Positions 12,593 to 51,080 of a DNA stretch of 64,000 nucleotides are shown here, in pieces (the stretch's first letter is position 1; every line of letters starts with the position of its first letter). The translations under genes and the position numbers were made by a program. Below the pieces are notes generated by a model that was given only the letters and a program-made list of their open reading frames with translations, had not been told where the DNA came from and did not search any database. Origin of the DNA: Polychytrium aggregatum (lineage: Eukaryota; Chytridiomycota; Chytridiomycetes; Polychytriales); contig NW_026516250.1 of assembly GCF_025602895.1 (NCBI RefSeq), positions 276,006-340,005 on the forward strand, given 5' to 3'.

Positions 12593-14585
12593 ATGTTCGT
12601 GTCGTCGATCACCTCCAACACATCGAGTGCTGTCTACTTTGCACCCACAAACCCGTCCGACACTTCGCCCTTCATCGAAAATGGCTATCCGTCGACGGGT
12701 TTCATTGCCTTGAACTCGGCCCTGGTCTTCCTCATGACCCCCGGTCTCGGCTTCTTCTACTCGGGAATGGCCCGCTCAAAGAACGCCCTCCATCTCATCA
12801 TGGCCTGCTATCTCGCCATCGCCATCGTGACCATCCAGGTGAGCACGGATATGCATGCAGTTGCGTGCGTGTGTGAGTTCCGAGTATGCATGTGGTTGCC
12901 AGTATGCATGCAGTTGCGAAGAACTGACTGCGATGGTGGAGGCTCTGGTGGCTGAATGAGATTGCTGACAAGTCTCGCTGCATCCATTCCATCTCGGTCG
13001 CAATCGTTGCTCTTGCGCACTCGTCAATTCTTCAGTGGGTCCTGTTCGGGTTCAGCCTTGCCTTCTCCGAATCAAGCGGTCCGTTCATCGGCAACTTTGC
13101 ATTCGGAGGCATGACGGGTGTCGGCGCCAACGCTCTCGCCGTTGCTGCACCGAGTGTTCCGGCGGTCGCATTTGCGCTCTATCAGCTCCAGTTCGCAACC
13201 ATCACAGTGGCGCTGATCTTTGGCTCAGTTGCCGAGCGCATCCGACTCCTTCCGGCCATGTTCTTCATCTTCTTCTGGACCTCGCTCATCTATGATCCCG
13301 TTGCCTATTGGACATGGGGTGCTCACGGATGGATCAAGAATATGTCCTGCCTCTCGACGACGGCTGCTTCGGCTGTACCCTGCGGCTACGGCGGCTACGA
13401 CTACGCCGGCGGCGGTCCTGTCCACATCGCCTCTGGCTTCAGCGGTCTTGCCTTTGCAATCTTCCTGGGTAGCCGCAAGCACGTCGAAAACTTCAAGCCA
13501 CACAACATCCTCAACATCTTCCTTGGAACAGCTCTCCTGTGGTTTGGTAAGTGATTTCATGAGCTTGCTGGGTGTAAGAGTAGGTGATGTTCATTCACAT
13601 GTCTCACATCTGTGGTTGCTGTTTACAATCCGGCGTAACTCTTGCACCATCAGGTTGGTTCGGTTTCAATGGAGGCTCCGCCATCTCTGCCACTCCCCGT
13701 GCCGCCATGGCTGCTTTCGTTACGACAGTTGCAGCTTGCGCTGGCGCCATGTCGTGGCTGCTCTACGACTTTGTCAACAACAGAAAGCTCTCTGGCCTTG
13801 GCTTCTGCTCCGGCGCCGTTGCGGCTCTGGTCGGAATCACCCCGTCGTCTGGATTTGTGGCTCCGTGGGCCGCCTTGGTGATCGGAGCCGTCTCCGGTGT
13901 GGTCTGCAACCTGTCGTGCCACATCAAGGTCAAGTTTGGATTCGACGACTCGCTCGATGCGTGGGGTGTCCACGGCGTCGGCGGCTTTGTCGGCAACATC
14001 ATGACGGGAGTGTTTGCACAAGCCTGGATCGCCACACTCGACGGAACATCGATTCCCGGCGGATGGATGGACGGCAACTGGATCCAAGTCGGATACCAGC
14101 TTGCAGGATCAAGTGCGATTGCAGCATACTCGTTTGTTGGCACATACTTGATCCTGTACCTGCTCGACTTGATTCCCGGACTGGACTTCCGACCCACCGA
14201 GGAAGAAGAGAAGAAGGGCGGCGACATTGCGTGTATGGGCGAGACGGCGTATCAGATCCTCGAGGCCGTCGGCATCGACCCATCGCTCCCTGGTCCGTTC
14301 AACAACGTCACGCTCATCCCTGGACCTCTCGTGCCGCTCAAGGAGGAGGATGAGGATCCCACCGAAATCCATGTCCCTTCGCGCCGACAAAGCATCATCG
14401 CCGACCTCTCGAGCACCACTCTGACCAACATCAAGATCGCCGGAGCTGCCCAGCCTGTCGAGGATCTCCACATCACTCGTGACGTTAGTCGCTCGGTCAA
14501 CGATGTCAACCGTGCCATCAACGATCGCCACGTCAACGTCTATGCCGTCTACAACCGTGGTCGAGCCACCTATACTCGCGGATAG
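12593..14585 (+). CDS. Ammonium transporter, AMT/MEP family (copy 1)
   Basis: Trimeric plasma-membrane ammonium permease. Exons 12593-12838, 13036-13546 and 13654-14585; both introns are GT..AG and the frame closes at TAG 14585. The start is ATG 12593 (MFVSSITSNTSS). About eleven membrane segments. The family signature is present as DYAGGGPVHIASGFSGL, which carries the first pore His; the second pore His is in WGVHGVGGFVGN. The His-His pair is that of the AmtB and Mep2 type. The C-terminal tail contains GVDPS-like and ETAYQILEAVGIDPSLPGPF segments, then a Ser/Asp-rich end. It is the first of a tandem pair; most of its sequence, introns included, is almost identical to copy 2. Confidence 0.93.
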
Positions 14586-16022: not shown

Positions 16023-17973
16023 ATGGCAACGACGCTGCTTTCGAAGCAGATCTCCAACGCATCGACATCGTTTTTCTTCTCTGCTACCAACCCGTCCGAG
16101 ACTTCGCCCTTCATCGAGAATGGCTATCCGTCGACGGGTTTCATTGCCTTGAACTCGGCCCTGGTCTTCCTCATGACCCCCGGTCTCGGCTTCTTCTACT
16201 CGGGAATGGCCCGCTCAAAGAATGCCCTCCATCTCATCATGGCCTGCTATCTCGCCATCGCCATCGTGACCATCCAGGTGAGCACGGATATGCATGCAGT
16301 TGCGTGCGTGTGTGAGTTCCGAGTGTGCATGTGGTTGCCAGTATGCATGCAGTTGCGAAGAACTGACTGCGATGGTGGAGGCTCTGGTGGCTGAATGAGA
16401 TTGCTGACAAGTCTCGCTGCATCCATTCCATCTCGGTCGCAATCGTTGCTCTTGCGCACTCGTCAATTCTTCAGTGGGTCCTGTTCGGGTTCAGCCTTGC
16501 CTTCTCCGAATCAAGCGGTCCGTTCATCGGCAACTTTGCATTCGGAGGCATGACGGGTGTCGGCGCCAACGCTCTCGCCGTTGCTGCACCGAGTGTTCCG
16601 GCGGTCGCATTTGCGCTCTATCAGCTCCAGTTCGCAACCATCACAGTGGCGCTGATCTTTGGCTCAGTTGCCGAGCGCATCCGACTCCTTCCGGCCATGT
16701 TCTTCATCTTCTTCTGGACCTCGCTCATCTATGATCCCGTTGCCTATTGGACATGGGGTGCTCATGGATGGATTCGCAACATGGCGTGCTTGAATCTGAC
16801 CTCGCCTTCGAGTGCGCCGTGTGGATACGGCAGTTACGATTATGCTGGCGGCGGTCCCGTCCATGTCGCTTCTGGCTTCAGCGGCCTCGCCTTTGCAATC
16901 TTTCTTGGGAAGCGCAAGAATATCGAAAACATCAAGCCACACAACATCCTCAACGTCTTCCTTGGAACAGCTCTCCTGTGGTTTGGTAAGTGATTTCATG
17001 AGCTTGCTGGGTGTAAGAGTAGGTGATGTTCATTCACATGTCTCACATCTGTGGTTGCTGTTTACAATCCGGCGTAACTCTTGCACCATCAGGTTGGTTC
17101 GGTTTCAATGGAGGCTCCGCCATCTCTGCCACTCCCCGTGCCGCCATGGCTGCTTTCGTTACGACAGTTGCAGCTTGCGCTGGCGCCATGTCGTGGCTGC
17201 TCTACGACTTTGTCAACAACAGAAAGCTCTCTGGCCTTGGCTTCTGCTCCGGCGCCGTTGCGGCTCTGGTCGGAATCACCCCGTCGTCTGGATTTGTGGC
17301 TCCGTGGGCCGCCTTGGTGATCGGAGCCGTCTCCGGTGTGGTCTGCAACCTGTCGTGCCACATCAAGGTCAAGTTTGGATTCGACGACTCGCTCGATGCG
17401 TGGGGTGTCCACGGCGTCGGCGGCTTTGTCGGCAACATCATGACGGGAGTGTTTGCACAAGCCTGGATCGCCACACTCGACGGAACATCGATTCCCGGCG
17501 GATGGATGGACGGCAACTGGATCCAAGTCGGATACCAGCTTGCAGGATCAAGTGCGATTGCAGCATACTCGTTTGTTGGCACATACTTGATCCTGTACCT
17601 GCTCGACTTGATTCCCGGACTGGACTTCCGACCCACCGAGGAAGAAGAGAAGAAGGGCGGCGACATTGCGTGTATGGGCGAGACGGCGTATCAGATCCTC
17701 GAGGCCGTCGGCATCGACCCATCGCTCCCTGGTCCGTTCAACAACGTCACGCTCATCCCCAGGTCCGTGGTCCCCATCACCGAAGAGGATGAGGACGAAG
17801 ATCCAACGGTCATCCTGCCGTCATCGCGAAGGACCAGTGTCATGGCCGAGTCGATCTCCACGACGCGTCTGCCCCAAGCCGTGCCCGAAGCTGCCGATTC
17901 CATGTCTCTGAACAGACATGTGAGCGTCTATGCCGTCTACAACCGAGGCAAGGCGACGTATACCCGCGGATGA
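16023..17973 (+). CDS. Ammonium transporter, AMT/MEP family (copy 2)
   Basis: Exons 16023-16277, 16475-16985 and 17093-17973. The start is ATG 16023 (MATTLLSKQISNAS). Intron positions and pore motifs are the same as copy 1 (DYAGGGPVHVASGFSGL with pore His 1; WGVHGVGGFVGN with pore His 2). The first ~25 residues, an external loop block (MACLNLTSPSSAPCGYGSYD here, against MSCLSTTAASAVPCGYGGYD in copy 1), the segment FLGKRKNIENIKPHN, and the last ~50 residues differ; the rest is almost identical. The two copies may differ in affinity or regulation through their tails. The pattern looks like tandem duplication followed by gene conversion. Confidence 0.93.
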
Positions 17974-23642: not shown

Positions 23643-24726
23643 TGACTGATTCTGATCGATGGGGGGAGGGTGGCCGACTGGCTGGACAGAGAGAGATGGC
23701 GATGCTGTGTATCTACCACACTTTGCACTGTATTCAGTGGGAAATAGGTCACTTGCCCACAACTCATTTGTCAGCGTAGTCTGTGATGGCATGCGTCCAA
23801 CTATGCCATAGGATATAAATCATATCACTTTGGCAGCCTCCGAGTGAAGACCACCAGTCGCTCTCCGGTCTCCACAATCGACCTGCACACTGGTCTCGGA
23901 GTGCCAGCGGTGAATGGTGCTTTTGGACATGGCCGTCGGGATTGAGGGACGATGGAAGCGCCGCCTCGTTCGACAAATCGATTGCGAGCGAGTTGGGACC
24001 AGCGACCGCCCTTTCATGGGGAAGCACGTTGAGGAGGGGACATGCGGCTGGCCCAAATGGGCAGGGTCGGTCGCAGAGGCGCCGGCTGGACGGCTTGCCG
24101 TTGGCGTTGGCAGCAAAGCCCGGGCAATGTGTGTGCCGGGCGCTGTTGGGCCCAGAGGCGCAGGTCGCCAGGCGCCAGCGGCGATGTTGGTACTGATGCA
24201 GATGCAGATGCAGATGCGGTGCGCCAGCAAGGCAAGGCCGAGGCAAGACCAAGTCAAGACCAAGTTCGCAGCCATGGCGACATCACAGCGCCTTCTTGTG
24301 CAGTCCAACGCCCGCCAAAGTCGCCAATGCCGTCCACTGCCGTCCACTGCCTTCCACTGCCCGCAGGCGTCGGTCACGCCCACTATGGCCAGTGCCTCTG
24401 CCTTGTCCATTCCGCCCAATCCAGCCCGTCTCCCCTGTGCCGATCCCACCGCAGCGAGGCGCCCAGCCTTCCGCGCATACATTCGGCACAGGGCCCGCGC
24501 TGCGCCTGGCTTTGGCGACGTTCCAAGGCGCGCGTTGGCTTGGACCGTCACCACTTCCCACGCGGCGCCGACGCTCGCCTGCTCCCCACCCTGCCGTCCT
24601 TCTTATACCGCCCCTCCATCGGCCGTCCCGCTGAGCATCCCAGCACATTCGGGAACCGCAAACCTTCGCCAGTGCCCTCGCTTGCAACCGCCGCTCCCTC
24701 ACTGACCCCCAGCCGTTCCCTCTATC
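23643..24726. other. Intergenic region containing a transposon remnant
   Basis: Apart from the Fanzor-element remnant at 23813-23935 I see no gene. The part from 24000 to 24726 is compositionally biased and pyrimidine-rich towards the ferritin-like gene. Long frames on both strands overlap each other and lack family signal. Confidence 0.4.
23813..23935 (-). mobile_element. Internally deleted remnant of the Fanzor/Tc1-like transposon
   Basis: About 90 bp matches the left end of the complete element at 48710-48786, including the last ~23 codons of its Fanzor gene (the complement of CTTTGGCAGCCTCCGAGTGA and the block after it). The match then switches directly to the transposase start, encoding SKSTIHRWH as at 52019-52041. 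Everything between, about 3.2 kb, is missing. This shows a second past insertion of the same family. The terminal repeats are not recognisable here. Confidence 0.8.
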
Positions 24727-28162: not shown

Positions 28163-31100
28163 CAGGGGCTTGGGGATATGCAAGGGTGCACATGTTGGAT
28201 GGAGATATGCTCCAACGACACGGGAGAAGGAAGAGACGGGACTGCGGAAGCATATTCAAGAGCGAACAGACATATGCTCCTGTTCGCCCGCAGATGTCAC
28301 GGCAGGGTGCGGATGCCATGGCAGGATGTGGTAACAGAGCCAGATGTGTTTATGCACATCAGGCCGTGGAGGTTGTACCAGTTGTGGAGGTCGTACCAGT
28401 TGTGGAGGTCGTATCAGTTGTGGATATCGTACCAGTTGTGGAGGTCGTACCAGTTGTGGAGATCCACAGCCAGACCCGAATATCCATACCGGGGGTGTGG
28501 ATATCCATATGCTCAGGCGGGGGATAGAGGACCTCACACTCGGAGCACAAGCTGCTCAAGGGCCGACACAGTCGCTTTGGTACTTTGAGACGAATGCGAG
28601 GCACCAGCGAGGCAGGAAGCAGCACAGTGAGGCAGGATGCAACCCAGCGAGATGGACAGCAGGGCAACAGGACAATAGACAACAGGACAGCAGGGCAATA
28701 GACAGCAGGGCAACAGGACAGCAGGGCAACAGGGCAGCCAGCCGGCTCGGCGCTCGAGCTGGGTTGGGTCGGTGGCGCACTTCCAATAATGATATATCTG
28801 CGCCACCTCCCCCTCAGCGGCCTTTGCCAGCATTTGCCAGCACTTGCCAGCATTTGCCAGCCTTTGCCAGCCTTTGCCAGCCTTCTGTCCCCATCGAACC
28901 TTTGTCTCCGCAAGTGCCCTCCCTTCCAGGCGTCCGTCCCTGCTGCCAATCCGCTGTTCCGCCAACACCATCACTCTGGTCATCTCTCCTGCCAAATATC
29001 TGTCGGCCAGACGCTCCTGCCAAATTGGTCGTTCTGCCTGGTCCCTGTCGTCCTGGCCATTGTTCTGGTCATTGTTCGGTCATTGTTTTGGTCATTGCTC
29101 CGGTCACTGCTTTGGCCTTGGTTTGACTGCCGTTCCTGTCAACCCCCGCTGCTGCAAGTGTCTTGTTTCCCGGTCACTGGGTCGTCTCCCGCACTGCGTC
29201 TGCTCTCGGACGCCTCCCGTTGCATCCAACCTCTGTCTTGCCTTGCTGTCTTGTCTTGCCGTCTTGCCTTGCTGTCTTGTCACTTGCGCCACCGATTGCC
29301 ATCTGCCATCTGCCATCTGCCATCTGCCATCTGCCATCTGCCATCTGCCATCTGCCATCTGCCATCTGCCATCTGCCATCTGCCATCTGCCATCTGCCAT
29401 CTGCCATCTGCCATCTGCCATCTGCCATCTGCCATCTGCCATCTGCCTGCTCTTCCCCAGCTGCCAATATCCTGCACACTCGATCACCCCTTGTTGCAAT
29501 TATCAAGGCCGCCCACAATTGAATCGTCCCCACTCCCACTCCCACTCCCACTCCCACTCCCACTCCCACTCCCACTCCCACTCCCACTCCCACTCCCACT
29601 CCCATCTGGACCTGAAGGATGCTGATCCCGGCGAGAAAGAGATCGCTGTGCGATACTCATGGCGAACGCCACGACTACTTTTTCGGCTATCGCTCCAGCT
29701 CCGATCTCGACACTGCTCGAGGTCTCAAGAGACTTGTCGTGTCGGTTTTCTATCGTCGCTACGGCGAGCATCTCGCAGTGTTCCTGGACCGCGACTGCCT
29801 CTCTGACGCTGACAGTTGGCAAAGAGTCTTCCTTGAGGAGCTTCCAAACAGCTCGGTGGCCGTCTTCCTCATCAGCAAGGAATCCATGGATATCATGCAG
29901 CAGAACGTTGAGACCAACAAGGAAGACGGTGTTGTCCTCGAGATTGAGCGTGCCCTGCAGCTGAGGGACAGCGGCTCGGATCTCCGGATCTTGCCACTGT
30001 CGATCGCAACATATGACGGGGTAAGTTCGAGGACCGGCATTGTGATGTGAACGATGCCAAGCAGGGCACAATCGCGCGGGCTGCCGATGTTGCTGCCGAT
30101 GTTGCTGCCGATGTTGCTGGCGAGTTGCTGCCGATGCTGTGATTGCACTAATGCTGCTTCGTTTGTTCCTGCTTGGTTTGTTCCTGCATCGCTGCACTAA
30201 TACCCGCCGCCGTACCATGAATGTCCCTGCCCTGCCCCGACTGTTGCTCCTCTACTCCTTAAAATCATACGATCTGCCACGCCTGTCGTCACATCGATAT
30301 CTCTCCGCTCTCATGACCCTGCTCTTGTTCGGAACATTACCGAATCGCCACCGAATCGCTACCGAATCCACCGCCCGCGACCACCCTTCGTTTCCCGCGA
30401 TCCGCGGACCCCTTCATGGCTCTCCATTGACCCATCCAACCACCCGGCTTGATTTGCCGTCACCAACCCACCCGGATCCCTGGCCTGTCTGTTCCTCGGC
30501 CTCTCGGTCCCAGACATCGTACACAATCTTCCATCCTTACAATTACGCCTTCCCAGCCTCCCCAAGGTTCGACAGGCTCAGGCACATTTTCCATCAATTG
30601 AAGCAAATCCAGATGCTCACTCTCCGACCCGACCAGGCGCACAGACGGGTCTACCGCCTGCTGAACCTGCTTCGGCCAATCTCGTCCGCCACCAAGGATG
30701 TTCTGGACCAGCTTCTCAAGCGCCACTTTTGCGACGCCAAGTTTTTTGGCCACATTGACCACCTCGACAGCCTCCTCGAGCAAGTCACTCGGACTGGTCG
30801 AGCAATCATCTCGGGACTGGGCGGTATGGGAAAGTCGGTCCTGGCTCGGCAGTTTCTCCGCTACATGATGGGCACGCTCGAGGTCAGCAACCAGGATTCG
30901 CTTGTGGAGTTCATGGACAGCACTATTGGAACACGGCCGCAGTACTTCAAGTTCTACTGGATCAATTGTGCGACCGAGGCCACCGCTCTGGACGGCCTTA
31001 TCAAGCTGTTCCCGTCCATCAATATCGAGGAGATCAAGCAGCATGCCTCGCACTATTTTGCCAACCAGCATGGATATCTCCTCGTCCTCGACAACATTGA

Positions 31101-31295
31101 CGATATTGACGCCGTCAACTCTGTCTTTGAGCACTCCGAGACCCTTGGGTTCGGAGGCGATGTCATCGTCACCACTAGGCTGTCCTCGATCAGCACTGGG
31201 GCGTTTCTCTCGGCGTTCAGGGCCAAAGTCTCGGACTTTCAGCAGCAACCCATCCGTCTCCTTCCCTGGTCGGACGATCTGACCTACAGCTATAT
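28163..31295 (+). repeat. Left arm of the large inverted repeat
   Basis: 3133 bp that reappear in reverse complement at 36029-39148 (3120 bp). The outer edge is at CAGGGGCTTGGGG and the inner edge at GACCTACAGCTATAT. From the receptor ATG to the inner edge both arms are exactly 1676 bp and encode the same protein. The 13-bp difference lies in the upstream tandem repeats: one 6-mer and one 7-mer copy. A few substitutions sit near the outer edge. Confidence 0.95.
28369..29604 (+). repeat. Cluster of tandem repeats in front of receptor gene A
   Basis: Successive arrays: an 18-mer GTACCAGTTGTGGAGGTC (about 28369-28462), CAGGGCAACAGGA-like units (28660-28740), a 10-mer TTTGCCAGCC (28820-28890), a heptamer TGCCATC (29297-29447, about 21.6 copies) and a hexamer CCCACT (29529-29604). 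The last ends 14 bp before the ATG. No ordinary promoter is visible in this 1.4 kb. Confidence 0.9.
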
Positions 31296-33424
31296 CTTTC
31301 AAAAGTGCAAGATTTTGTCGGAAAGAATCACCCTCGAGACTTCTGTCACCAGACTTCGAAACATTGTCACAAAGCTGGAAGGAAACCCTTTGACCATTCA
31401 GTCTTTCATGTTGTATTATGAGGCGGAGGAGCCTGCTCTGAACGAGCTTGGGTATGCTTTTGATCAAGTGTTCGAACAAAAACATGGACCGAACGAGACA
31501 CAGCGTTCGCTCAGGGTCCTCGTCTCCCTTGCTATGGAGTTCATTCGGAGCCACGGAGACGAAGGGCTGGCAGCGTGCAAGCTCTATGGTGGCCTCTGTC
31601 TCCTTGGCTCTGAAGACATTCCCTTTGACCTGATCAAGCAAGTAGCGGGTACTTTGGGACTAGTTCCAAGAGGTATATACCGTTCACTCGCGTCCACGGC
31701 AACAATACGCCCCCGTGGCTTTCGACTGGATCATGTCCTGACTCTTCTTCTCGACTTCCACTTCAGTGAGTTCCACCTTGCGCAAACTCGTGCAAATCGG
31801 CCTCCTTCGCCAGTCCGCCGACGATTACTACTACACAAGTGCTCTCCAGCAGCGCGCTGCTCGAGAGTACCTTGAGGGGCGTCCGGATCTGGATCTCACT
31901 TCCATCAGCGACGCCGTTGGTCGTGCCTTCGTCTCCAAGATTCAATTCCCATGCGATCGACCAACATTTTCACTCAGTCACCATTTTGATCAGTATCTGC
32001 AGCTCTCGTTTGACCACTGTCGCAATCATCCCTTGTCGTTCGAAGTTGAAATTACCGCAGCCAAACTGGATATCGAAAGAGGCAGATTCAAGGCTGCTTC
32101 AGATCGACTCACCAGACTGTGCGACATCGAGGACGATCTCAACACCTTGGAGGCACAGCGGCGATATGTCAGCATACGGCTCTATCTTGCGCAATCGTGC
32201 ACTGAGCTAAGACAATTTGATTCTGCGCATCGCGCGCTACAGGAGGCTCTGGCTTTCTTCCAAAGCCCTGTTACCTCAGACGAACGCGAGACCCAGGCAC
32301 TCCTCGTTGCCCAGCAGGGACGGACCTACTTGAAAGCCGGGTGCTTCAGCGAGGCGGCTGGTGCTCTGGAGCGGTCCATCCAGATTATTAGCTCAGTCCG
32401 CGACAGTTTTTACTATCAAGATGTTGCCAGCGCTTTGATTCTCCTGGGCGACATTGCAAAGGCTGAGAAACGACCCAAGGATGCTCTGACCCACTACAAC
32501 CGTGTCCTTGAAATCGAACCCAACATCTCCCAGATTCACGACCAATCCTATCTTGCTGACATCCATGTCAATATTGCCGTCATCTCAAGTGCCAATAACA
32601 AGCTCGACACCGCGCACAAGCACTTCCAAAGCTCGATAGCCGTACGTACGCAGCTTCTAGGAACCAGTGTCCATCCCAAGGTAGCTTCGGCCCACTTGCA
32701 GTATGCGGACTGGCTATTTCGCATTGGGTACTTTACCGAGGCGCTGGACAACTACAATCGGGCTTTCGCTATTTTCACGCAAGTATTCGAAACATGCTGT
32801 CTCCCCGAGACAGCATATATTTGTTCTAGAAGATCGCTGGTGCTCATGAAGTCCGGTGCCCCGAAAAGCGCAATCGACGCGATCCAAGAGGCACTCAAGT
32901 TGGCCCAAAAGGTATATGGCCCTTCGTTGCGTGACGCTGAAATCGACACCCTGAAATCCGATGCCAGGAATGCTCTCTCCAGCCTCGGCGGCTCGTTTGA
33001 GGCAGCGTTTAAATCGTACTTGGAAGCATTTCTCCTCTACCCGAACGTCTGCGGACACACGGAAGCAAGTGACGACACAGCACAGGTGCGAAAAGCAAGT
33101 CTGCTATTGTCGGGGGACTGCACGCCCTTGGAAGCGTTACCAGCGCAATCAACTGACGCTGTAGTTTCAGCTTTGATGCGCATGGAGCCGAACGACCTGA
33201 ACTCTCAGCAACCACACGGCAGTGCAGCGATGCGAGATCATGAGACCGGGGTGCCTATGTCGAGCAATGTCTGTGTCGAAAAACAATTCCACGGAGAGGA
33301 ACTCAGTCAAGATGATTTAAAGAGCTTCAAGAACGTCCGGAGCCCCCATCAAACACCAAGCATACTGCTTCCCTCACTCATCGTGCTCGTTCTCTGCATC
33401 ATCCTCGCATTCATCCGATCTTGA
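29619..33424 (+). CDS. NLR-like receptor A: TIR, NB-ARC, TPR, C-terminal membrane anchor
   Basis: Exons 29619-30020, 30514-31672 and 31767-33424, in frame, 1072 residues. TIR, ~residues 17-165: HDYFFGYRSSSDLDTARGLK, then VFLDRDCL, then SSVAVFLISKE, then the helix VVLEIERALQ whose Glu may be the NADase glutamate, then LRILPLS; the third TIR protein nearby supports the 30514 acceptor. NB-ARC: P-loop GLGGMGKS (~235-242), Walker B LLVLDNIDD (~323), GGDVIVTTR, and a GxP-like block EGNPLTIQS. The winged-helix end reads LLRQSADDYYYTSALQQRAA, with no MHD-type His. About seven TPRs follow. The last ~20 residues (SILLPSLIVLVLCIILAFIRS) form a tail anchor. Likely an intracellular innate-immune or self-recognition receptor that oligomerises on ligand; ligand and output are unknown. 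Confidence 0.82.
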
Positions 33425-33565
33425 GCAAGCGGTACTATATTGAACGATAATTGATGCTTGCAAATACACAACGTTCTCCAACCTCGTGAAGCATTGCGTT
33501 AGAGCAGCGCTTGGAGCAGCAACTCTTTGGCTGCCGTGTCATGGCTGTGTAGCCAATGTGCTTGT
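33425..33565. other. Short convergent intergenic gap at the palindrome centre
   Basis: 141 bp between the stop codons of receptor genes A (+) and B (-). Nothing else is seen. Confidence 0.6.
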
Positions 33566-36500
33566 TCACTTTGAATTCTTGGTCAACCCGGACAGTTCCA
33601 ATATTCTGGAATGAACAAATTCTGCGATCGGGTCCTCCAAGTCGCATGAGATATGCAAAAGATCATCCAGGGCGCGGCAATAATGTTTCCGCGCCAAATC
33701 GCACTGATGCTGACATTCGTTGAGAATACCAAGGCTGGTCATTATTCCGGCACGTACAATGTTACTTTTGGAGTCGAAGAAGGCTTCATTGAGATCCAGC
33801 GCTTCTTGAAGGGTCTCTTCGGCCTCGGCATATCGCCCAAGATGAGTAAGCACGGTACCGATGCTGACCAGCGACTCGGCGACGCTGACATGAGCTCTCG
33901 TACCGTAAACTCCAATTTTGATCTCCAAACCTTTCTGGAAGTAATCGAAAGCCTCTTGAAGTCGGTTTTGCTTCATGGAAAGATCGCCCAGCTTGTGAAA
34001 CGACAGCGCGATCAATAAGTCGGTCTTGTCGGGAGAGAGTATGCTCGATATGATCATGGCTTCACCGAGATAACGGGCAGCCCCGTCAATGTCCCCTTGG
34101 ACAGTTGAGACGTCAGCGAGTTTTTGGAGAATCATGAGGATCATAGGATCATTGCGAGTTTGAAACACGGCGAGACCCAGGTCGAGGGAGGCTTCGAGAA
34201 ATGTCTGTGCTTCGCTGTGCTTTCCCAATATATAATGTGCAGACCCCATGGTCATCAGAATATCGACCGTTGTCTCTGAGCCGCCCTCTGGATCCGTAGC
34301 AGTTGTGATGGCGAGAGCCTCCTCGAGCCGGGACAGCGCTTTCTCAACCTGGCCCTCCTTCATGAGAATCGTACCGACTTCGCGCAAAGCCCGCGCCACA
34401 TCTGCATGGACTCGGGTTTCGTGGAGTTTGGTGGCGATTACGACACACTGCTCAAAGTAGGATCGTGCTTCAAGCGAATTCCCCATCTCCGCGGAGACGA
34501 TGCCCAGGTTATTGAGGATGGGGATCAGCATCGGATGAATACGGAATGTGTCCATATTTTGCAGCATTTCGAGCGACTCCAGAAGATATCTTTCAGCCTC
34601 GGCGCTGTTTCCAAGCGCTCTCTCGAGATCTCCCAGATTGTTGAGAGACTGAACAATATCCATGTGTTTCTTATTTGGAAACAAGCGCAGTCGAAGATGG
34701 AGGCATTCTTGGTATTGTTTCTGCGCTTCCTTGAGCCGGCCAAACTGTTTCTCGATGTTGCCGATGTTGTTGTGAATTGTAGCGATGATGGGATGATCCC
34801 GATCCGGGTAGGCGCTGATCCCTTGTTCAAGAGCTTCTTTATAGAGATTAAGAGCGATTTCTCGATGACCCAGTTGCGACTCGACCGCCCCAAAGTTACA
34901 GAGGAGTACGGCCATCAATCGAGCACTGCCTGGCTCTGTGACGCAATCGAGGATGTGTCGTGCTTTGGTAAAGCAATCTTCTGCCTCCTTTAGCTTTCCC
35001 CTGTCGCTGTATATGGAACCAACGTTGATTGTGGACTGGATGATGTCCGCTGTAGCTATTTGATCCCGGATCGTCAAGCGGATGTCCAATGCTTCTGCGA
35101 AGCAAGCCATGGATTCATCGAAGCGTCCAAGAGTGGAGAAAACAGTTCCGAGCGTATTCCGAACCGATGCGTACATGGGGCTGAACTTCGTGCCATAAAA
35201 TAAAAGGCACCGCTCCAAACACACGGAGAGAGCTTCTTGGCTTGACTTGTAGGCACCACGATCGTTCAACACCTCCCCAAATCTCCAGTGAATCCATGCA
35301 TGCATCTCCTTGGTGTAGCGCTCAGGAATAGCTCTTGCTGCATAATAATCAAGGTGGCCGCCAACCACCACGCTTTGAGTGTCCGGAAGGTCGGTGAGAC
35401 CAAATATGACCACTCCAGTATCTTCCTCAGCTTGCTCGAGGTCCAACGCTTCAATACACTTGAGAAAATCGTACGAAGCAGCTTGGATGAGGGAATGCGT
35501 GTAGTAAACATCGTCGGCTCCAAGTCGGAGGAGCCCTCTTTGGCACAGCAGTCGCACGGCCGAAGGAAGAACTGGAGCAAAGAGCGTCAATATTGCACCA
35601 CGGTTTGTATGTGCATGTAAAGAAGATGACGTGCAGAGTATCGATGCTCACCGTCGGTGGATATGCCCAGTCTTTCTCCGAGTTTCTTGATAAGAATGTA
35701 TGGGATGTCGTCAGGACCGAGCAAGCCGATGCTTGCCAGGAGTCGACGGGCAGCTTCCCCGAGCTTCTCTTGAGCAGAAATCGACTCAATAGACAAGCTG
35801 ACGATGGCTTTGAGAGAAGAGCGCTGATCCTGGTCATTTGTGCTCTGATTGAGGAAATTTTGGAAGTTTCGATCAACATCGGAGAGCGATACATCAACGT
35901 TGTCCAAGAGAGTCAAAAGTGTTCCGAGAACAAGAGGGTATCCCTGTATTTTCGATACGATGCGTGAGAGAGTATCCAGATCTTCTTTGGAGTCAAATTT
36001 GCCTTCAGTACGAGAAGACTCGGAGAGAATATAGCTGTAGGTCAGATCGTCCGACCAGGGAAGGAGACGGATGGGTTGCTGCTGAAAGTCCGAGACTTTG
36101 GCCCTGAACGCCGAGAGAAACGCCCCAGTGCTGATCGAGGACAGCCTAGTGGTGACGATGACATCGCCTCCGAACCCAAGGGTCTCGGAGTGCTCAAAGA
36201 CAGAGTTGACGGCGTCAATATCGTCAATGTTGTCGAGGACGAGGAGATATCCATGCTGGTTGGCAAAATAGTGCGAGGCATGCTGCTTGATCTCCTCGAT
36301 ATTGATGGACGGGAACAGCTTGATAAGGCCGTCCAGAGCGGTGGCCTCGGTCGCACAATTGATCCAGTAGAACTTGAAGTACTGCGGCCGTGTTCCAATA
36401 GTGCTGTCCATGAACTCCACAAGCGAATCCTGGTTGCTGACCTCGAGCGTGCCCATCATGTAGCGGAGAAACTGCCGAGCCAGGACCGACTTTCCCATAC

Positions 36501-37705
36501 CGCCCAGTCCCGAGATGATTGCTCGACCAGTCCGAGTGACTTGCTCGAGGAGGCTGTCGAGGTGGTCAATGTGGCCAAAAAACTTGGCGTCGCAAAAGTG
36601 GCGCTTGAGAAGCTGGTCCAGAACATCCTTGGTGGCGGACGAGATTGGCCGAAGCAGGTTCAGCAGGCGGTAGACCCGTCTGTGCGCCTGGTCGGGTCGG
36701 AGAGTGAGCATCTGGATTTGCTTCAATTGATGGAAAATGTGCCTGAGCCTGTCGAACCTTGGGGAGGCTGGGAAGGCGTAATTGTAAGGATGGAAGATTG
36801 TGTACGATGTCTGGGACCGAGAGGCCGAGGAACAGACAGGCCAGGGATCCGGGTGGGTTGGTGACGGCAAATCAAGCCGGGTGGTTGGATGGGTCAATGG
36901 AGAGCCATGAAGGGGTCCGCGGATCGCGGGAAACGAAGGGTGGTCGCGGGCGGTGGATTCGGTAGCGATTCGGTGGCGATTCGGTAATGTTCCGAACAAG
37001 AGCAGGGTCATGAGAGCGGAGAGATATCGATGTGACGACAGGCGTGGCAGATCGTATGATTTTAAGGAGTAGAGGAGCAACAGTCGGGGCAGGGCAGGGA
37101 CATTCATGGTACGGCGGCGGGTATTAGTGCAGCGATGCAGGAACAAACCAAGCAGGAACAAACGAAGCAGCATTAGTGCAATCACAGCATCGGCAGCAAC
37201 TCGCCAGCAACATCGGCAGCAACATCGGCAGCAACATCGGCAGCCCGCGCGATTGTGCCCTGCTTGGCATCGTTCACATCACAATGCCGGTCCTCGAACT
37301 TACCCCGTCATATGTTGCGATCGACAGTGGCAAGATCCGGAGATCCGAGCCGCTGTCCCTCAGCTGCAGGGCACGCTCAATCTCGAGGACAACACCGTCT
37401 TCCTTGTTGGTCTCAACGTTCTGCTGCATGATATCCATGGATTCCTTGCTGATGAGGAAGACGGCCACCGAGCTGTTTGGAAGCTCCTCAAGGAAGACTC
37501 TTTGCCAACTGTCAGCGTCAGAGAGGCAGTCGCGGTCCAGGAACACTGCGAGATGCTCGCCGTAGCGACGATAGAAAACCGACACGACAAGTCTCTTGAG
37601 ACCTCGAGCAGTGTCGAGATCGGAGCTGGAGCGATAGCCGAAAAAGTAGTCGTGGCGTTCGCCATGAGTATCGCACAGCGATCTCTTTCTCGCCGGGATC
37701 AGCAT
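33566..37705 (-). CDS. NLR-like receptor B: TIR, NB-ARC, long TPR domain
   Basis: Exons (minus) 37705-37304, 36810-35652 and 35571-33566, 1188 residues. The TIR and NB-ARC parts up to about residue 394 are identical to receptor A (P-loop GLGGMGKS, Walker B LLVLDNIDD). Past the arm edge it diverges: EGKFDSKEDLDTLSRIVSKI, then QGYPLVLGTLL, then a winged-helix block GLLRLGADDVYYTHSLIQAA that keeps a His at the MHD-like position. Exon 2 has the same length (1159 nt) in both genes, so the ends are homologous but diverged. About 13 kinesin-light-chain-type TPRs follow, e.g. ASVRNTLGTVFSTLGRFDES and INVGSIYSDRGKLKEAEDCF. There is no membrane anchor; it ends LSGLTKNSK. The TPRs are the likely sensing surface. 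Confidence 0.82.
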
Positions 37706-39148
37706 CCTTCAGGTCCAGATGGGAGTGGGAGTGGGAGTGGGAGTGGGAGTGGGAGTGGGAGTGGGAGTGGGAGTGGGAGTGGGAGTGGGGACGATTCAAT
37801 TGTGGGCGGCCTTGATAATTGCAACAAGGGGTGATCGAGTGTGCAGGATATTGGCAGCTGGGGAAGAGCAGGCAGATGGCAGATGGCAGATGGCAGATGG
37901 CAGATGGCAGATGGCAGATGGCAGATGGCAGATGGCAGATGGCAGATGGCAGATGGCAGATGGCAGATGGCAGATGGCAGATGGCAGATGGCAGATGGCA
38001 GATGGCAGATGGCAATCGGTGGCGCAAGTGACAAGACAGCAAGGCAAGACGGCAAGACAAGACAGCAAGGCAAGACAGAGGTTGGATGCAACGGGAGGCG
38101 TCCGAGAGCAGACGCAGTGCGGGAGACGACCCAGTGACCGGGAAACAAGACACTTGCAGCAGCGGGGGTTGACAGGAACGGCAGTCAAACCAAGGCCAAA
38201 GCAGTGACCGGAGCAATGACCAAAACAATGACCGAACAATGACCAGAACAATGGCCAGGACGACAGGGACCAGGCAGAACGACCAATTTGGCAGGAGCGT
38301 CTGGCCGACAGATATTTGGCAGGAGAGATGACCAGAGTGATGGTGTTGGCGGAACAGCGGATTGGCAGCAGGGACGGACGCCTGGAAGGGAGGGCACTTG
38401 CGGAGACAAAGGTTCGATGGGGACAGAAGGCTGGCAAAGGCTGGCAAAGGCTGGCAAATGCTGGCAAGTGCTGGCAAATGCTGGCAAAGGCCGCTGAGGG
38501 GGAGGTGGCGCAGATATATCATTATTGGAAGTGCGCCACCGACCCAACCCAGCTCGAGCGCCGAGCCGGCTGGCTGCCCTGTTGCCCTGCTGTCCTGTTG
38601 CCCTGCTGTCTATTGCCCTGCTGTCCTGTTGTCTATTGTCCTGTTGCCCTGCTGTCCATCTCGCTGGGTTGCATCCTGCCTCACTGTGCTGCTTCCTGCC
38701 TCGCTGGTGCCTCGCATTCGTCTCAAAGTACCAAAGCGACTGTGTCGGCCCTTGAGCAGCTTGTGCTCCGAGTGTGAGGTCCTCTATCCCCCGCCTGAGC
38801 ATATGGATATCCACACCCCCGGTATGGATATTCGGGTCTGGCTGTGGATCTCCACAACTGGTACGACCTCCACAACTGGTACGATATCCACAACTGATAC
38901 GACCTCCACAACTGGTACGACCTCCACAACTGGTACAATCTCCACGGCCTGATGTGCATGAACACATCTGGCTCTGTTACCACGTCCTGCCATGGCATCC
39001 GCACCCTGCCGTGACATCTGCGGGCGAACAGGAGCATATGTCTGTTCGCTCTTGAATATGCTTCCACAGTCCCGTCTCTTCCTTCTCCCGTGTCGTTGGA
39101 GCATATCTCCATCCAACATGTGCACCCTTGCATATCCCCAAGCCCCTG
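36029..39148 (-). repeat. Right arm of the large inverted repeat
   Basis: Reverse complement of 28163-31295. It holds the upstream repeat arrays (heptamer 37871-38014, about 20.6 copies; hexamer 37720-37790), the TIR exon, intron 1, and the NB-ARC part of receptor B. The inner edge is inside the NB-ARC exon and not at a gene boundary. Confidence 0.95.
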
Positions 39149-39698: not shown

Positions 39699-41875
39699 TT
39701 ATCGGAATTGGTACAAAGACTGTATCGTTTTGTTGCTGTTCAGCCGCTTGCGTGTGCTGGCAGCGATGGCCACCTGGGTCGAGATCTTGAACGAAGGTTG
39801 AGCTGGAAACATCGAAAGGTTGAGGGGAATGTCCAGATTCAAGAATTTCAAGAGCTGTCTGTGCTGGATAAGCAACTCGCTTCGACTGCTGCAGTTGAGG
39901 AGGATGAACATGTAATGCTGGAAGCCTGTGCGCGTGATTGCGTAGCCCAGGTCGTGGTACTCGATGTTCGGCGGGATTTTGGCACACTCGACACCGAGCT
40001 GCTGGTAGAACTCAAACTCGTTGCCGTATCGGGTCAGGAGCAAGCCTTGATTGATGTAGTCGTCGTATCCGCGGAAAAAGTTGCGATGGAAGGTGTCCAT
40101 CTTGGTTGCTTCCAAGAAGCTTGTTCTCTCGGGGAAGACCGAGGCGTCGAGAGCATCAAAGATCCAGCTGTACAGTCGGCAGCCCAAGGGAGTGAGTCTC
40201 TCCGCGTTCAGCTCCGACAGATACATGGCCTCCCCAGGAATAAACTGAAACGAAGGGCTCTGTGGAATGGCCACGGGGGCCGGGGTTGGGGGCTGGACAA
40301 CTTCCGGGGCTCGCAGAGGCAGTGGCGGAGGAGTGGCAACTACCGGTGTTGTCTCGGCAGCAGCAGTTGGGGCGGGCGACGCCGGCGGCGCTGCGGCATT
40401 CTGGAGATCAAACGTGTTTGCGTAGATGGTGGCAAGCTGGCTGAGGCAGTTGCTGACCAGCCGGGGAATGCAATTGATGCCCTGGATGGCAAAGATGAAG
40501 GCCATCGTCTCTCGAATGGTGTGCTTCTGAGGACTGTTTGGATGGCAATGTAGCTCATCGGGGAACTGGTCGAGATTGAAGGACCGGAAGAGGGAAATTA
40601 CGTCCCCGGACTCCTCTGCCACAAGGAAGGGAACGATCTCAAGCTTGCCGGTCTTGCACAGGTCGACAGCGAACTCCCACTGTTACGACGAGCCAAGGCA
40701 GTTACCGCATTAGAACTCCTAGCTCGTTCATTCTCCAGCAACCGAGCCAAGCAGCAGTGGGCACCTGTGCATACCCATACTGCTGGTGCAGAACATATTC
40801 CACCCATCGCGGGGAGCAGAGCAGAGCAGAAAATATACGCCGCACATCAGCACTGATTTGGACGCCAGGCCAGACAACAGCCACTCACCTCAAGCAGAAG
40901 GTTGTCGGGCTTGTCGGCGGTCCTGACACGCTCAAGCGCCTGGTCGCTGATGAGCAGAATGGCGATTTTCGAGTTGACGAGGCCACTGAGGAAACCCTGC
41001 TCCCAAGCCTTGCCATAGACGAGACAGTTGACATCGAGATAAACGTGGGGCAGCTTGGGAGCTCCGCCTTTCGTGTATGCCTTTAGACGGTCGGTAAACT
41101 CGGACGACTGAAGGTAGAGTGCCAGCTTTTCGGCGAGGTTGTGCTCGGACGAGACACGGTAGGAAATGAAAAAGTCATGGGCGGTGTAGCCGCTGCGGCA
41201 CTTCCAATCCTTGCGGCTGGTGAAAACCCGAGACAGGGTGCTCTTTTCGTTCTGCGGGGGAACCTTGGGACGGGTTGGGGGCTGCGAGTCGCCTTCAGAC
41301 GCTGGTTCGGGCTGGGGGCTGGGCTGAGGCTCTTGGGCTGTCTCGGAGACAGGGGGGCTGGGGATCGGGGCTTGCGACGGCTCAGGCTTGATAGCGGGTT
41401 GGGAGATGGCACCGGCATCGAGGGCCTGGGGATACGCTTGATCAATAGAATCAGCCGAGCTTGGGAAAGGCACGGATGGACGACCAAACGAGCTCTGCGA
41501 TTGCGTACGACCAAACGAGCCCTGCGATTGCAGACGACCGAATGAACTCTGCGATTGCGGGCGTTCAAACGAGCCCTGCGATTGCGGACGAAACGAACTC
41601 TGCGACTGTAGACGTTCAAGCGAGCCAGCATGCGACAGCGAGCCGTATTGGAGAGGAGCCTGGTCAAAGGTCTCGGCCACGAACTGGGGCTCCTGGACGA
41701 AACTACTGTTGGTGACGGGTTCGCCGAGGAAGCTCTGTTCATAGAAGGTGCTCGAGGAGTACCCGATGGACTCGTCAAAGCTGGGAGGCAGCTCGCTGTG
41801 GCCGTGGGTGGCGAAGTCAGATGCACCACTGGTTGTGGCAGCCGGCGCTGCGGGTGGCTCTCCGTCGCCATCCAT
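39699..41875 (-). CDS. TIR-domain protein with Ser/Gln repeats
   Basis: Exons (minus) 41875-40889 and 40679-39699, joined in phase 0 through GTGAGT...AACAG, 655 residues. Residues ~88-132 are repeats of the form QSQSSFGR/LQSQGSFGR, and a Pro/Glu/Ser-rich linker follows. TIR, ~228-385: YTAHDFFISYRVSSEHNLAE, then PHVYLDVNCLVYGKAWEQGF, then SKIAILLISDQALERV, then across the splice NLLLE/WEFAVDLCKTGKLEIVPF, then FPDELHCHPNSPQKHTIRET. The helix glutamates at the splice junction are candidates for the NADase residue. The C-terminal ~250 residues are unrecognised (e.g. CRLYSWIFDALDASVFPERT, YHDLGYAITRTGFQHYMFIL). There is no nucleotide-binding domain, so it may be an adaptor or effector for the neighbouring receptors; that is inference. 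ATG 41875 is the most likely start unless the UBA exon upstream belongs. Confidence 0.75.
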
Positions 41876-48644: not shown

Positions 48645-48716
48645 ACATAGCCGTTTCCATGAACATGTAGTATGTGCTGTGCTTGCGTCAAGCAAAGCCA
48701 CAAGAAATAAAACAGA

Positions 48717-51080
48717 TCACTTTGGCAGCCTCCGAGTGAAGACCGCTGGTCGCTCTCCGGTCTCCACAATCGACCTGCACACTGTGATCATGTTGCGCGC
48801 CGCATTGACGTCGCGATTCCACACTGTCTGGCAGCTGGGATTCTTGCAGCTCCTGACAAAGTGGGAATTCGCAACACTGGGCGCATCGAGTCCTTCCAAC
48901 CGAACTGGCTCCAGGCACTTGGAGCACACTTGCGAGGTGTTGAACTCGTTCGTCGAGGCCACCTTGACGCTTCCATGAGGGTGATTGGGACGGCGTCGGT
49001 GGTGCTCGAATTGCTCAAAGTACCGCTGCCTCCGAGGGCTGGATGCATAGCCCTTGCCTTGTCGCCATGACGCATTGCCAAAGGCGATCACCACATCGGT
49101 CCGTATCGGGGCGTGCTTCAGGACGGCCTTGCACATCTTGTCAACGGCCACTTGGCGCCTCCTGTGGCCCGTGAATCGATGGTGACGGGCCTTCTTGCCA
49201 AGGTGGAAGTCGAGCTGCACTCGCAGCTCCGGTCGCAGGACATGGGTGAGATGGACCTTGAAGGCCTCCGAGGACGACACCTTGGGCGAGGGGGTGGTCG
49301 CCATCCAGGTCTCGATGCTGAGTCGATACTTCATGGTGTTGTGCCACCTGGTGTTGGACGTATGGCCACACATGTGCTGATAGTGGCCATTGGAGAACGA
49401 GACCACCTCGTCTTGGTGGCCCGGTGCTTGGATGACCGCCGTGAAGATGGAGCCGACTCCAGGATCGATGCCAATCCAAGTGGTGCGATCGGGGTCTGGG
49501 TCGCCGATGTGGGCCTGGATGCGCTGCTCGGCAGTCGGAGGAGGCTCGGAGGTCTCGGTGTGATCGGTTCGAGGCAGAAACTTGACGAGGCCGATGGTGC
49601 ATCCAATGCCATCGGTGCTGATCTCGTAGTTGAACAGCTTCTTGTTCACGTCCCGCTCTTGGAAGAGGGAACTACGCAGCTTGAAGCAACTGCGCCAGAG
49701 ACGATCCTGGTTGTTGATGCCGTCCTCACCTTCTTCCTTGAGCATGTCCCGGGTGAGTTCAAGGCGCTTCTTTGGACCCAGGAGATTCCAGAGAGTGACG
49801 GTGTCAATCTTGACATACTTGGCCCTTGCAGTGCATAGAGGAACTATCGTGCACACGGCCGGAGGAGTGTCGACGGCGAGCTGCTTGAGTGCCCAGTTGA
49901 TCCTGGAAGCCAGCTTGTTGATCTTGGCCTTGGTGGTGCCGAGCTCAGACTTGGCGTTGGTGAACCTCTTGTCGTCGGAGGGAATGCCTTGGGCAGTGAG
50001 CTCGTCCAGCTTGGCCTGGCGCTGCAGCTCGGTGACTCGGAGGGCGGGCATGTCGGAGTCGATCCACTTGTGGACATTGTCGACCATCTTGTCTCGGGCG
50101 AGGATTCCCACATGGTGTGAGAGGCGATGGAGGGCCCGGAAGCGGTCCTGGTCGTTGCTGTACCGAAACTCGTCCAGGACGTGGCCAAAGTCTGGATAGA
50201 GGAACTCGAGATCGGCCTTGGGTGGTGTCTGCCCTGGTTTCTCGAAGAGCTCGAGACAGGCCTCGATGGCTTCGTGCTTATGCTTGTTGGCTGGGAAGAC
50301 GGTAGCGCAGAAGCGACGAAGGAGTCGCCAGTAGGCCAGGTCGAGGTGGGTGGTGCAGTTGGTGGCATAGGCATTGACAGCCAGTGTGAGAAGCTGACTG
50401 TGAGCACCATCAGGCAGACGAGGGGCCGGAGGCAGGTCTGCGTGCCGAGTGGTCTGGTAGTCGCGAAAGGAAGCGACCAGATGCTCGTTGTATTTTTTGG
50501 TATCCCTGGCCGTCGAGAGGGCATCGGCCTCGACAATCGTGAAGCATTGGCGGATGAAAGCAGGGGTGGACTTGGAGATGACGGGGACGGGAAGATCCTG
50601 CTCGGTGCACCTCAGGATGTGCAGGTTGAGCAGCCTGGATGCCTCGAACTGGATCTGGGTCATGGCCTCGACGGTGGCCTGGATCTTGTCGCGGAGAGCG
50701 GGATTGAGACAACAGCCATCCATCGTCTGCTTGAAGCAGCTGAACTGAGGGGCGGATGACCTTCCATCCACGAGTGGGACGACAGAACTCTTGAGGGGCC
50801 GGTATTTGGGACACTTGCTAGTGTTGCAACGTTCGTGATCGGTGCCATCGCACTGGCGACATCGCTTGCCAGTACTCGAGGAAGTAGATGGACCAGGCTC
50901 GGTGGGATCGACATCCATTGGATCTGCAGAAGCAGTGGTGGTGAGCGACGGAGCAACAGACGACCAAGCATGCGTGGGATCAGAATACGAACCAGAGACA
51001 GGCTCCGACTGTGACTTGGCTTTCTTGGGCCTGGGTGGCCGAGGCTGGTCATCACCGGCACCCTTACGCTTCGGAGGCAT
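48717..51080 (-). CDS. Fanzor (eukaryotic TnpB-like, OMEGA) RNA-guided nuclease
   Basis: Uninterrupted frame of 787 residues starting at ATG 51080. Basic, Pro-rich N terminus resembling a nuclear localisation signal (MPPKRKG...PPRPKKAKS). A zinc-knuckle-like cluster lies at ~74-90 (CRQCDGTDHERCNTSKC). A long helical part follows. RuvC-I is WIGIDPGVGSIFTAV with Asp539. The RuvC-II region reads TDVVIAFGNASWRQGKG (662-677) and lacks the usual TnpB Glu at its normal place, as reported for Fanzors with a rearranged site. The zinc ribbon has Cys719/722 (NTSQVCSKC) and Cys745/750 (SCKNPSC), and RuvC-III is NRDVNAARN with Asp757. Family members cut DNA under guidance of an RNA encoded beside or over the 3' end of the gene. 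The frame is full length and carries all other motifs, so the protein may be active. Confidence 0.9.
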   Translation of the reverse strand: MPPKRKGAGDDQPRPPRPKKAKSQSEPVSGSYSDPTHAWSSVAPSLTTTASADPMDVDPTEPGPSTSSSTGKRCRQCDGTDHERCNTSKCPKYRPLKSSVVPLVDGRSSAPQFSCFKQTMDGCCLNPALRDKIQATVEAMTQIQFEASRLLNLHILRCTEQDLPVPVISKSTPAFIRQCFTIVEADALSTARDTKKYNEHLVASFRDYQTTRHADLPPAPRLPDGAHSQLLTLAVNAYATNCTTHLDLAYWRLLRRFCATVFPANKHKHEAIEACLELFEKPGQTPPKADLEFLYPDFGHVLDEFRYSNDQDRFRALHRLSHHVGILARDKMVDNVHKWIDSDMPALRVTELQRQAKLDELTAQGIPSDDKRFTNAKSELGTTKAKINKLASRINWALKQLAVDTPPAVCTIVPLCTARAKYVKIDTVTLWNLLGPKKRLELTRDMLKEEGEDGINNQDRLWRSCFKLRSSLFQERDVNKKLFNYEISTDGIGCTIGLVKFLPRTDHTETSEPPPTAEQRIQAHIGDPDPDRTTWIGIDPGVGSIFTAVIQAPGHQDEVVSFSNGHYQHMCGHTSNTRWHNTMKYRLSIETWMATTPSPKVSSSEAFKVHLTHVLRPELRVQLDFHLGKKARHHRFTGHRRRQVAVDKMCKAVLKHAPIRTDVVIAFGNASWRQGKGYASSPRRQRYFEQFEHHRRRPNHPHGSVKVASTNEFNTSQVCSKCLEPVRLEGLDAPSVANSHFVRSCKNPSCQTVWNRDVNAARNMITVCRSIVETGERPAVFTRRLPK

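Follow-up and report, generated by a model that had tools for sequence, protein, structure and literature searches.

In sensor/helper pairs of NLRs, one partner carries a degenerate signaling domain, and in the palindromes of primate Y chromosomes the two arms are homogenized by gene conversion. Among fungi, TIR domains have been reported in NLRs of Chytridiomycota (Wojciechowski et al., 2022, PMC9815663), and Dyrka et al. (2014, PMC4986451), as far as the accessible text goes, gave no NLR matches in the chytrids that they analyzed. From the portions of these two sources considered here, the TIR-NB-ARC-TPR protein class is already known. Head-to-head NLR pairs appear rare in Sordariales, accounting for 13 of 225 two-gene clusters in the accessible part of PMC12258605, in which the term "tail-to-tail" has 0 occurrences. 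The locus described here, from the chytrid Polychytrium aggregatum, holds two such receptor genes whose front halves lie in the arms of a palindrome and whose back halves fill its center. It is best read as a chimeric receptor pair, in which a front half was copied in inverted orientation and the arms have since been converted, and we put the probability of this reading at roughly 60%.

Structure of the Palindromic Locus

The window is a stretch of 64,000 nt (276006-340005) at the very end of its contig, which is 340,005 bp long; the assembly comprises 418 contigs and totals 64.7 Mb. An earlier note on this DNA described inverted arms at 28163-31295 and 36029-39148, and these coordinates hold. 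The arms contain exact inverted blocks of 1761 nt (29535-31295 against 36029-37789) and 1278 nt (28163-29440 against 37871-39148), and over their full length they align at 99.46% identity in BLASTN, with 4 mismatches and 13 gaps. This likeness is far above chance, and the palindrome is real. Below, wL and wR denote the left and right arms of the window haplotype, and hL and hR those of haplotype 2.

28163..31295, plus strand: left arm, with a 1456 bp upstream region, the TIR exon, a 493-bp intron and the start of the NB-ARC exon
36029..39148, minus strand: right arm, an inverted copy of the left arm; base by base, 4 substitutions and 13 gap columns
31296..36028, no strand: single-copy center of 4733 bp, in equal orientation on both haplotype contigs
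28163..28372, no strand: outermost 210 bp on the left side, mirrored at 38939-39148, holding all 5 left/right substitution sites of either haplotype
29297..29447, plus strand: 7-mer array, copies in wL/wR/hL/hR 21/20/19/19
29529-29604: hexamer array, copies in wL/wR/hL/hR 12/11/13/13

From the receptor ATG (29619 on the left, 37705 on the right) to the inner edge of the arm there are 1677 bp, intron included, with 0 differences in 4 of 4 arms; the equality of length and protein put forward earlier is thus borne out, at one base more than the 1676 bp first given. The inner edge falls within the NB-ARC domain rather than where NB-ARC meets TPR, and the part that is not shared therefore consists of the remainder of NB-ARC, which we take to be the ARC2/winged helix, together with the TPR region. 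The center had been described as two different TPR ends, tail to tail; they are different and so arranged (gene L ends at 33424 and gene R at 33566, with stop codons 141 bp apart), and the description has to be widened to include ARC2/winged helix. The inner junction lies in the codon that directly follows a segment aligned to the DYI-like motif of most family members. No microhomology was seen outside either arm edge in the four-arm alignment.

The palindrome is also present on the contig of the second haplotype (C168), at 466632-469756 and 474490-477614. Window positions 13637-52048 match this contig in one alignment (99.28%) that is uninterrupted across arms and center, and therefore flanks and center are co-oriented on both haplotypes; a DNA search with the center returned two locations, each on the plus strand, and the palindrome junctions are identical in both. 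Substitutions between the haplotypes number 37/14442 in the left flank, 1/3119 in the left arm, 1/4733 in the center, 5/3113 in the right arm and 79/12897 in the right flank, 65 of the latter at 49-51 kb. The sole substitution of the center (33250) is synonymous in gene L, the L protein of haplotype 2 is identical, and all three R exons match letter for letter.

Several other features of the window were observed along the way. A Fanzor/TnpB-like gene (48717-51080, minus strand; PF07282, E=4.3e-9; 787 aa) is open in both haplotypes, and its alleles differ at 68/2364 bases, with 33 nonsynonymous and 26 synonymous codons, making it a divergence island amid otherwise nearly identical haplotypes. 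Its 3' end is overlapped by the second copy of a 118-bp direct repeat (23776-23892 and 48667-48784; 86%). Adjoining the right arm, a frame at 40847-41875 (minus strand) ends in a TIR-like stretch that retains the glutamate and is 36% identical to the receptor TIR (E=1.8e-6; no Pfam match). A 1.7-kb direct duplication lies at 12647-14320 and 16086-17759 (97% identity).

Two Intact Receptor-like Genes

Both genes are intact and encode putative TIR-NB-ARC-TPR receptors that belong to a large family.

29619..33424, plus strand: gene L, 1072 aa; exons 29619-30020, 30514-31672 and 31767-33424; TIR, NB-ARC and TPR
33566..37705, minus strand: gene R, 1188 aa; exons 37705-37304, 36810-35652 and 35571-33566; TIR, NB-ARC and TPR
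29619..30020, plus strand: TIR exon common to L and R (mirror 37304-37705)
31296..33424, plus strand: L-specific ARC2/winged helix and TPR; nearest relative in trees is the minus-strand gene of the C46 pair
33566..36028, minus strand: R-specific ARC2/winged helix and long TPR array

In Pfam, the NB-ARC domain scores 27.7 bits in L and 32.0 bits in R, both above the curated cut-off of 23.5, and the C-terminal TPR_12 scores 83.1 and 226.1 bits, respectively. The N-terminal domain is likely a TIR, although it remains below the formal cut-off (TIR_2, E=0.0015, 19.4 bits against 28). Its predicted model has a mean pLDDT of 62.4, and the top PDB match of this model is the TIR-APAZ of SPARTA (E=7.3e-3; none reach 0.001 or better), with other TIR chains ranking lower in the list, mixed with unrelated folds. 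Glu108 is invariant in 11/11 aligned homologues, and a sequence search of solved structures with the TIR exon gave no relevant match.

A public protein model (P0001, 961 aa) equals gene L residue for residue to about residue 959 and then stops earlier. The C-terminus of L that it lacks includes a strongly hydrophobic stretch of 19 residues (33361-33421, plus strand; mean Kyte-Doolittle 3.03), possibly a tail anchor. P0001 was obtained among 44 protein matches, which are headed by six P. aggregatum proteins (P0001-P0006) and continue with proteins of 21-31% identity; among these 44, neither the locus in another species or isolate nor gene R itself is found.

One Front Half on Two Unrelated Back Halves

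The front part (NB, about 250 aa) is 100% identical between L and R, and the back part (ARC2, 127 aa) is 26% identical. Elsewhere in the family, front and back identities co-vary, and among 325 paralogue pairs the two differ by 14 points at most. After 12 sequences were added, the 703 pairs, which include allelic and near-duplicate ones, gave a largest front-minus-back gap of 33 points, and the top pairs all involve C42. At that locus (C42:101510; L066, L077), the front half is about 70% and the back half about 37-39% identical to the same relatives, and it is possible that it represents an older chimera.

The distance between the back halves of L and R exceeds that of each to many paralogues. 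With the ARC2 part and TPR head, the AU test rejects both a tree in which L and R are back-half sisters (p=0.009) and one in which back halves group by locus (p=0.003). The back halves are, on these sequence trees, deep and non-sister lineages of the family. The divergence of the sensor ends noted earlier is thus large, while the implied descent from a recent common gene finds no support in the AU test. Non-sister back halves mean that the copied front half came to sit on an unrelated, already different partner, and since the identity spans the 493-bp intron and upstream DNA, it reflects copied DNA and not protein constraint. A DNA search of the genome with the front half returned 4 full-length matches, all within the two palindrome copies, and the further loci that had been envisaged, with the same N-terminal half and other TPR ends, did not appear in it.

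A plausible sequence of events would begin with a 3.1-kb block, comprising upstream region, TIR and start of NB-ARC, being set in inverted orientation before a different ARC2-TPR half that had diverged long ago. We infer that this probably happened through repair copying from the neighboring inverted gene, with joining at a conserved NB-ARC motif, and the DYI-like motif at the junction is plausible as a suitable site for such homology-guided repair. The outcome would be two convergent genes with one signaling half and two unrelated sensing halves. Thereafter, one or more conversion events would have passed sequence between the arms, leaving the TIR/NB-ARC halves identical. The center would not be open to this process because its L and R ends have no DNA similarity.

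Linked Pairs in the Receptor Family

The genome, both haplotypes together, holds 81 NB-ARC matches. Those less than 40 kb apart are the palindrome (on both contigs), a pair on contig C46 and two in-frame-split genes (C101, C50), leaving the palindrome and C46 as the only pairs within that distance. Near-identical family copies on four further contigs (C222, C339, C70, C312) lie about 7.7-8.0 kb from the contig start, perhaps at shared chromosome ends.

The C46 genes (285384, minus strand, and 288535, plus strand; region C46:281200-292800; L056, L067, L068) stand head to head, and this pair occurs once in the assembly. The minus-strand gene retains the TIR glutamate, and its partner has a TIR without the Glu region and a 1015-aa TPR-bearing frame. 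In back-half trees, L joins the minus-strand gene with support of 99.6/100 (19 sequences), 99.4/99 (23 sequences, without 5 near-duplicates and C146_143k, in which the TPR head was not found) and 0.951 in FastTree, long branches being a worry for this placement. The minus-strand gene is also the best non-allelic match of the L TPR exon (118.7 bits, next 109.0; 79 of 169 candidates scored), but by raw score it is not first for the L ARC2 part (77.5 against 90.1 bits). A corresponding clade of R with the plus-strand gene is not settled: support is 73/77 with 19 sequences and 0.144 in FastTree, in the 23-sequence tree R pairs with C397_360k (18/53), within a larger group that includes the plus-strand gene (92/51), and many matches to the R TPR exon are better than this gene (130.2 bits against a best of 183). 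In front-half trees, the C46 partners cluster with each other (84/79 and 84/85); a grouping of the palindrome front half with the minus-strand gene is just rejected (p=0.049), and with the plus-strand gene it is not (p=0.24).

Both L-type genes found here therefore lie in opposite-strand pairs, and the other family matches are without a neighbor inside 40 kb, which suggests, post hoc, that the L-type may be a pair partner. L and R are themselves two linked NLRs in opposite orientation, tail to tail. Their TIR domains are identical, and it is the C46 pair in which one partner has a degenerate signaling domain. From their sequences, one may hypothesize that the identical front halves let L and R assemble or signal together, working as a pair.

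Probable Exchange between the Arms

The sites at which left and right arms differ by substitution, in either haplotype, are confined to the outer 210 bp (5/5, at 28238-28372), 1.2 kb or more upstream of the receptor ATG. The right arm of haplotype 2 alone differs at 28238, left differs from right in both haplotypes at 28245, and the right arm of the window haplotype alone differs at 28327, 28351 and 28372. The chance of finding 5/5 sites there is 1.4e-6 if they are independent and uniform, and 3.0e-4 if they represent three events; three of the five fall within 45 bp, unique to one arm, and may be one event. One further site, 28937, has T,T in the arms of the window haplotype and C,C in those of haplotype 2, a pattern that needs arm-to-arm transfer or recurrent mutation. 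Both repeat arrays are equal between the arms of haplotype 2 (19/19 and 13/13) and unequal in the window haplotype (21/20 and 12/11), where the two length differences sit inside the arm and not at its edge.

States shared within a molecule (one SNP and, in haplotype 2, two arrays; few sites) and residual substitutions near the edge both argue for arm-to-arm conversion, probably after the haplotypes split. Against this, 28937 is the sole SNP of the diagnostic pattern, repeat arrays mutate fast, the window arms are unequal at both arrays, and the haplotypes are so nearly identical here that the arms are perhaps just young. With such small numbers, conversion is likely but not proven from these sequence patterns, and the earlier proposal that it keeps the TIR/NB-ARC halves alike has partial support.

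Youth of the arms is the substance of the next explanation, namely that a one-off recent inverted duplication formed the chimeric gene and no conversion followed. The low local divergence of the haplotypes (1/4733 in the center), the abrupt inner edge and the mostly small array differences between L and R would agree with it, but it would have to attribute the pattern at 28937 to recurrent mutation, and it does not account for haplotype 2 arms that match each other at two arrays, unlike both window arms, or for substitution sites limited to the outer edge. We consider it a real but minor possibility. An extension of the preferred reading, in which conversion would enforce the common TIR/NB part, joint assembly or signaling would thereby always be open to both receptors, the ARC2-TPR sensors would diverge freely, and the L-type would be a pair-specific partner, in C46 as well, is a tentative proposal of about the same standing.

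An assembly artefact, either a false palindrome or over-polished arms, is very improbable. Polishing can homogenize near-identical arms, but the junctions are identical on two separately assembled contigs (both from one assembly), arms within one contig differ with states that partition by contig, two open and spliced receptor genes result, and the public protein model tracks gene L over the left junction.

Inverted repeats around a unique center can recombine in principle, and 3.1-kb arms flanking 4.7 kb might do so, but the two-state shuffle inferred in the earlier note, whereby the flip changes which receptor is made, can be set aside as the main reading and has next to no credence, because the other orientation of 31296-36028 is absent from both haplotype contigs (one orientation, 2/2), and because 1456 bp of upstream DNA and everything to the junction lie within the arms, so that a flip recreates the same two proteins behind the same upstream DNA and would alter only sequence outside the arms. 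Such flips may occur, silent for the proteins.

Comparison with Known Systems

Taken together, the evidence favors a chimeric pair with converted arms, and its parts can be set beside several described systems. As in primate Y palindromes, the two arms of a molecule resemble each other more than one would expect, and their differences are kept at the arm edge. The palindrome here differs in that its arms hold only half of each gene, and thus conversion would hold one half identical and leave the other free. Sensor/helper pairs are resembled most by C46, with one intact TIR and a partner without the Glu region; if the reading of L and R is correct, the C46 pair, with its degenerate partner, would be a natural counterpart to compare.

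In domain order, L and R are like the fungal TIR-NB-ARC-TPR NLRs in the accessible parts of PMC4986451 and PMC9815663, with a likely N-terminal TIR, NB-ARC and C-terminal TPR. P. aggregatum is a chytrid with 81 NB-ARC matches, in contrast to the chytrids without NLR matches of Dyrka et al. (PMC4986451, as far as its accessible text goes). In the incompletely covered literature on fungal NLRs, a description of an NLR pair with a common palindromic front half was not met, and we do not claim its absence. The head-to-head pairs of plants and of Sordariales (PMC12258605, accessible part) are likewise two linked NLRs in opposite orientation, but the genes of the palindrome are arranged tail to tail and carry one and the same intact front half. 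If correct, this would extend the logic of paired NLRs to a chytrid, at a great distance from both plants and Sordariales. Exchange of sequence would have shaped the receptors here as it has the HET-NACHT-WD40 genes of Podospora (PMC4986451, accessible part), likewise fungal NLRs, whose repeats evolve in concert; there it is the sensor repeats that are exchanged, and here it is the front half that is common. Ultimately, a common half in the arms with the sensors in the center would, if true, be a simple genomic way to combine the same signaling with changing sensing.
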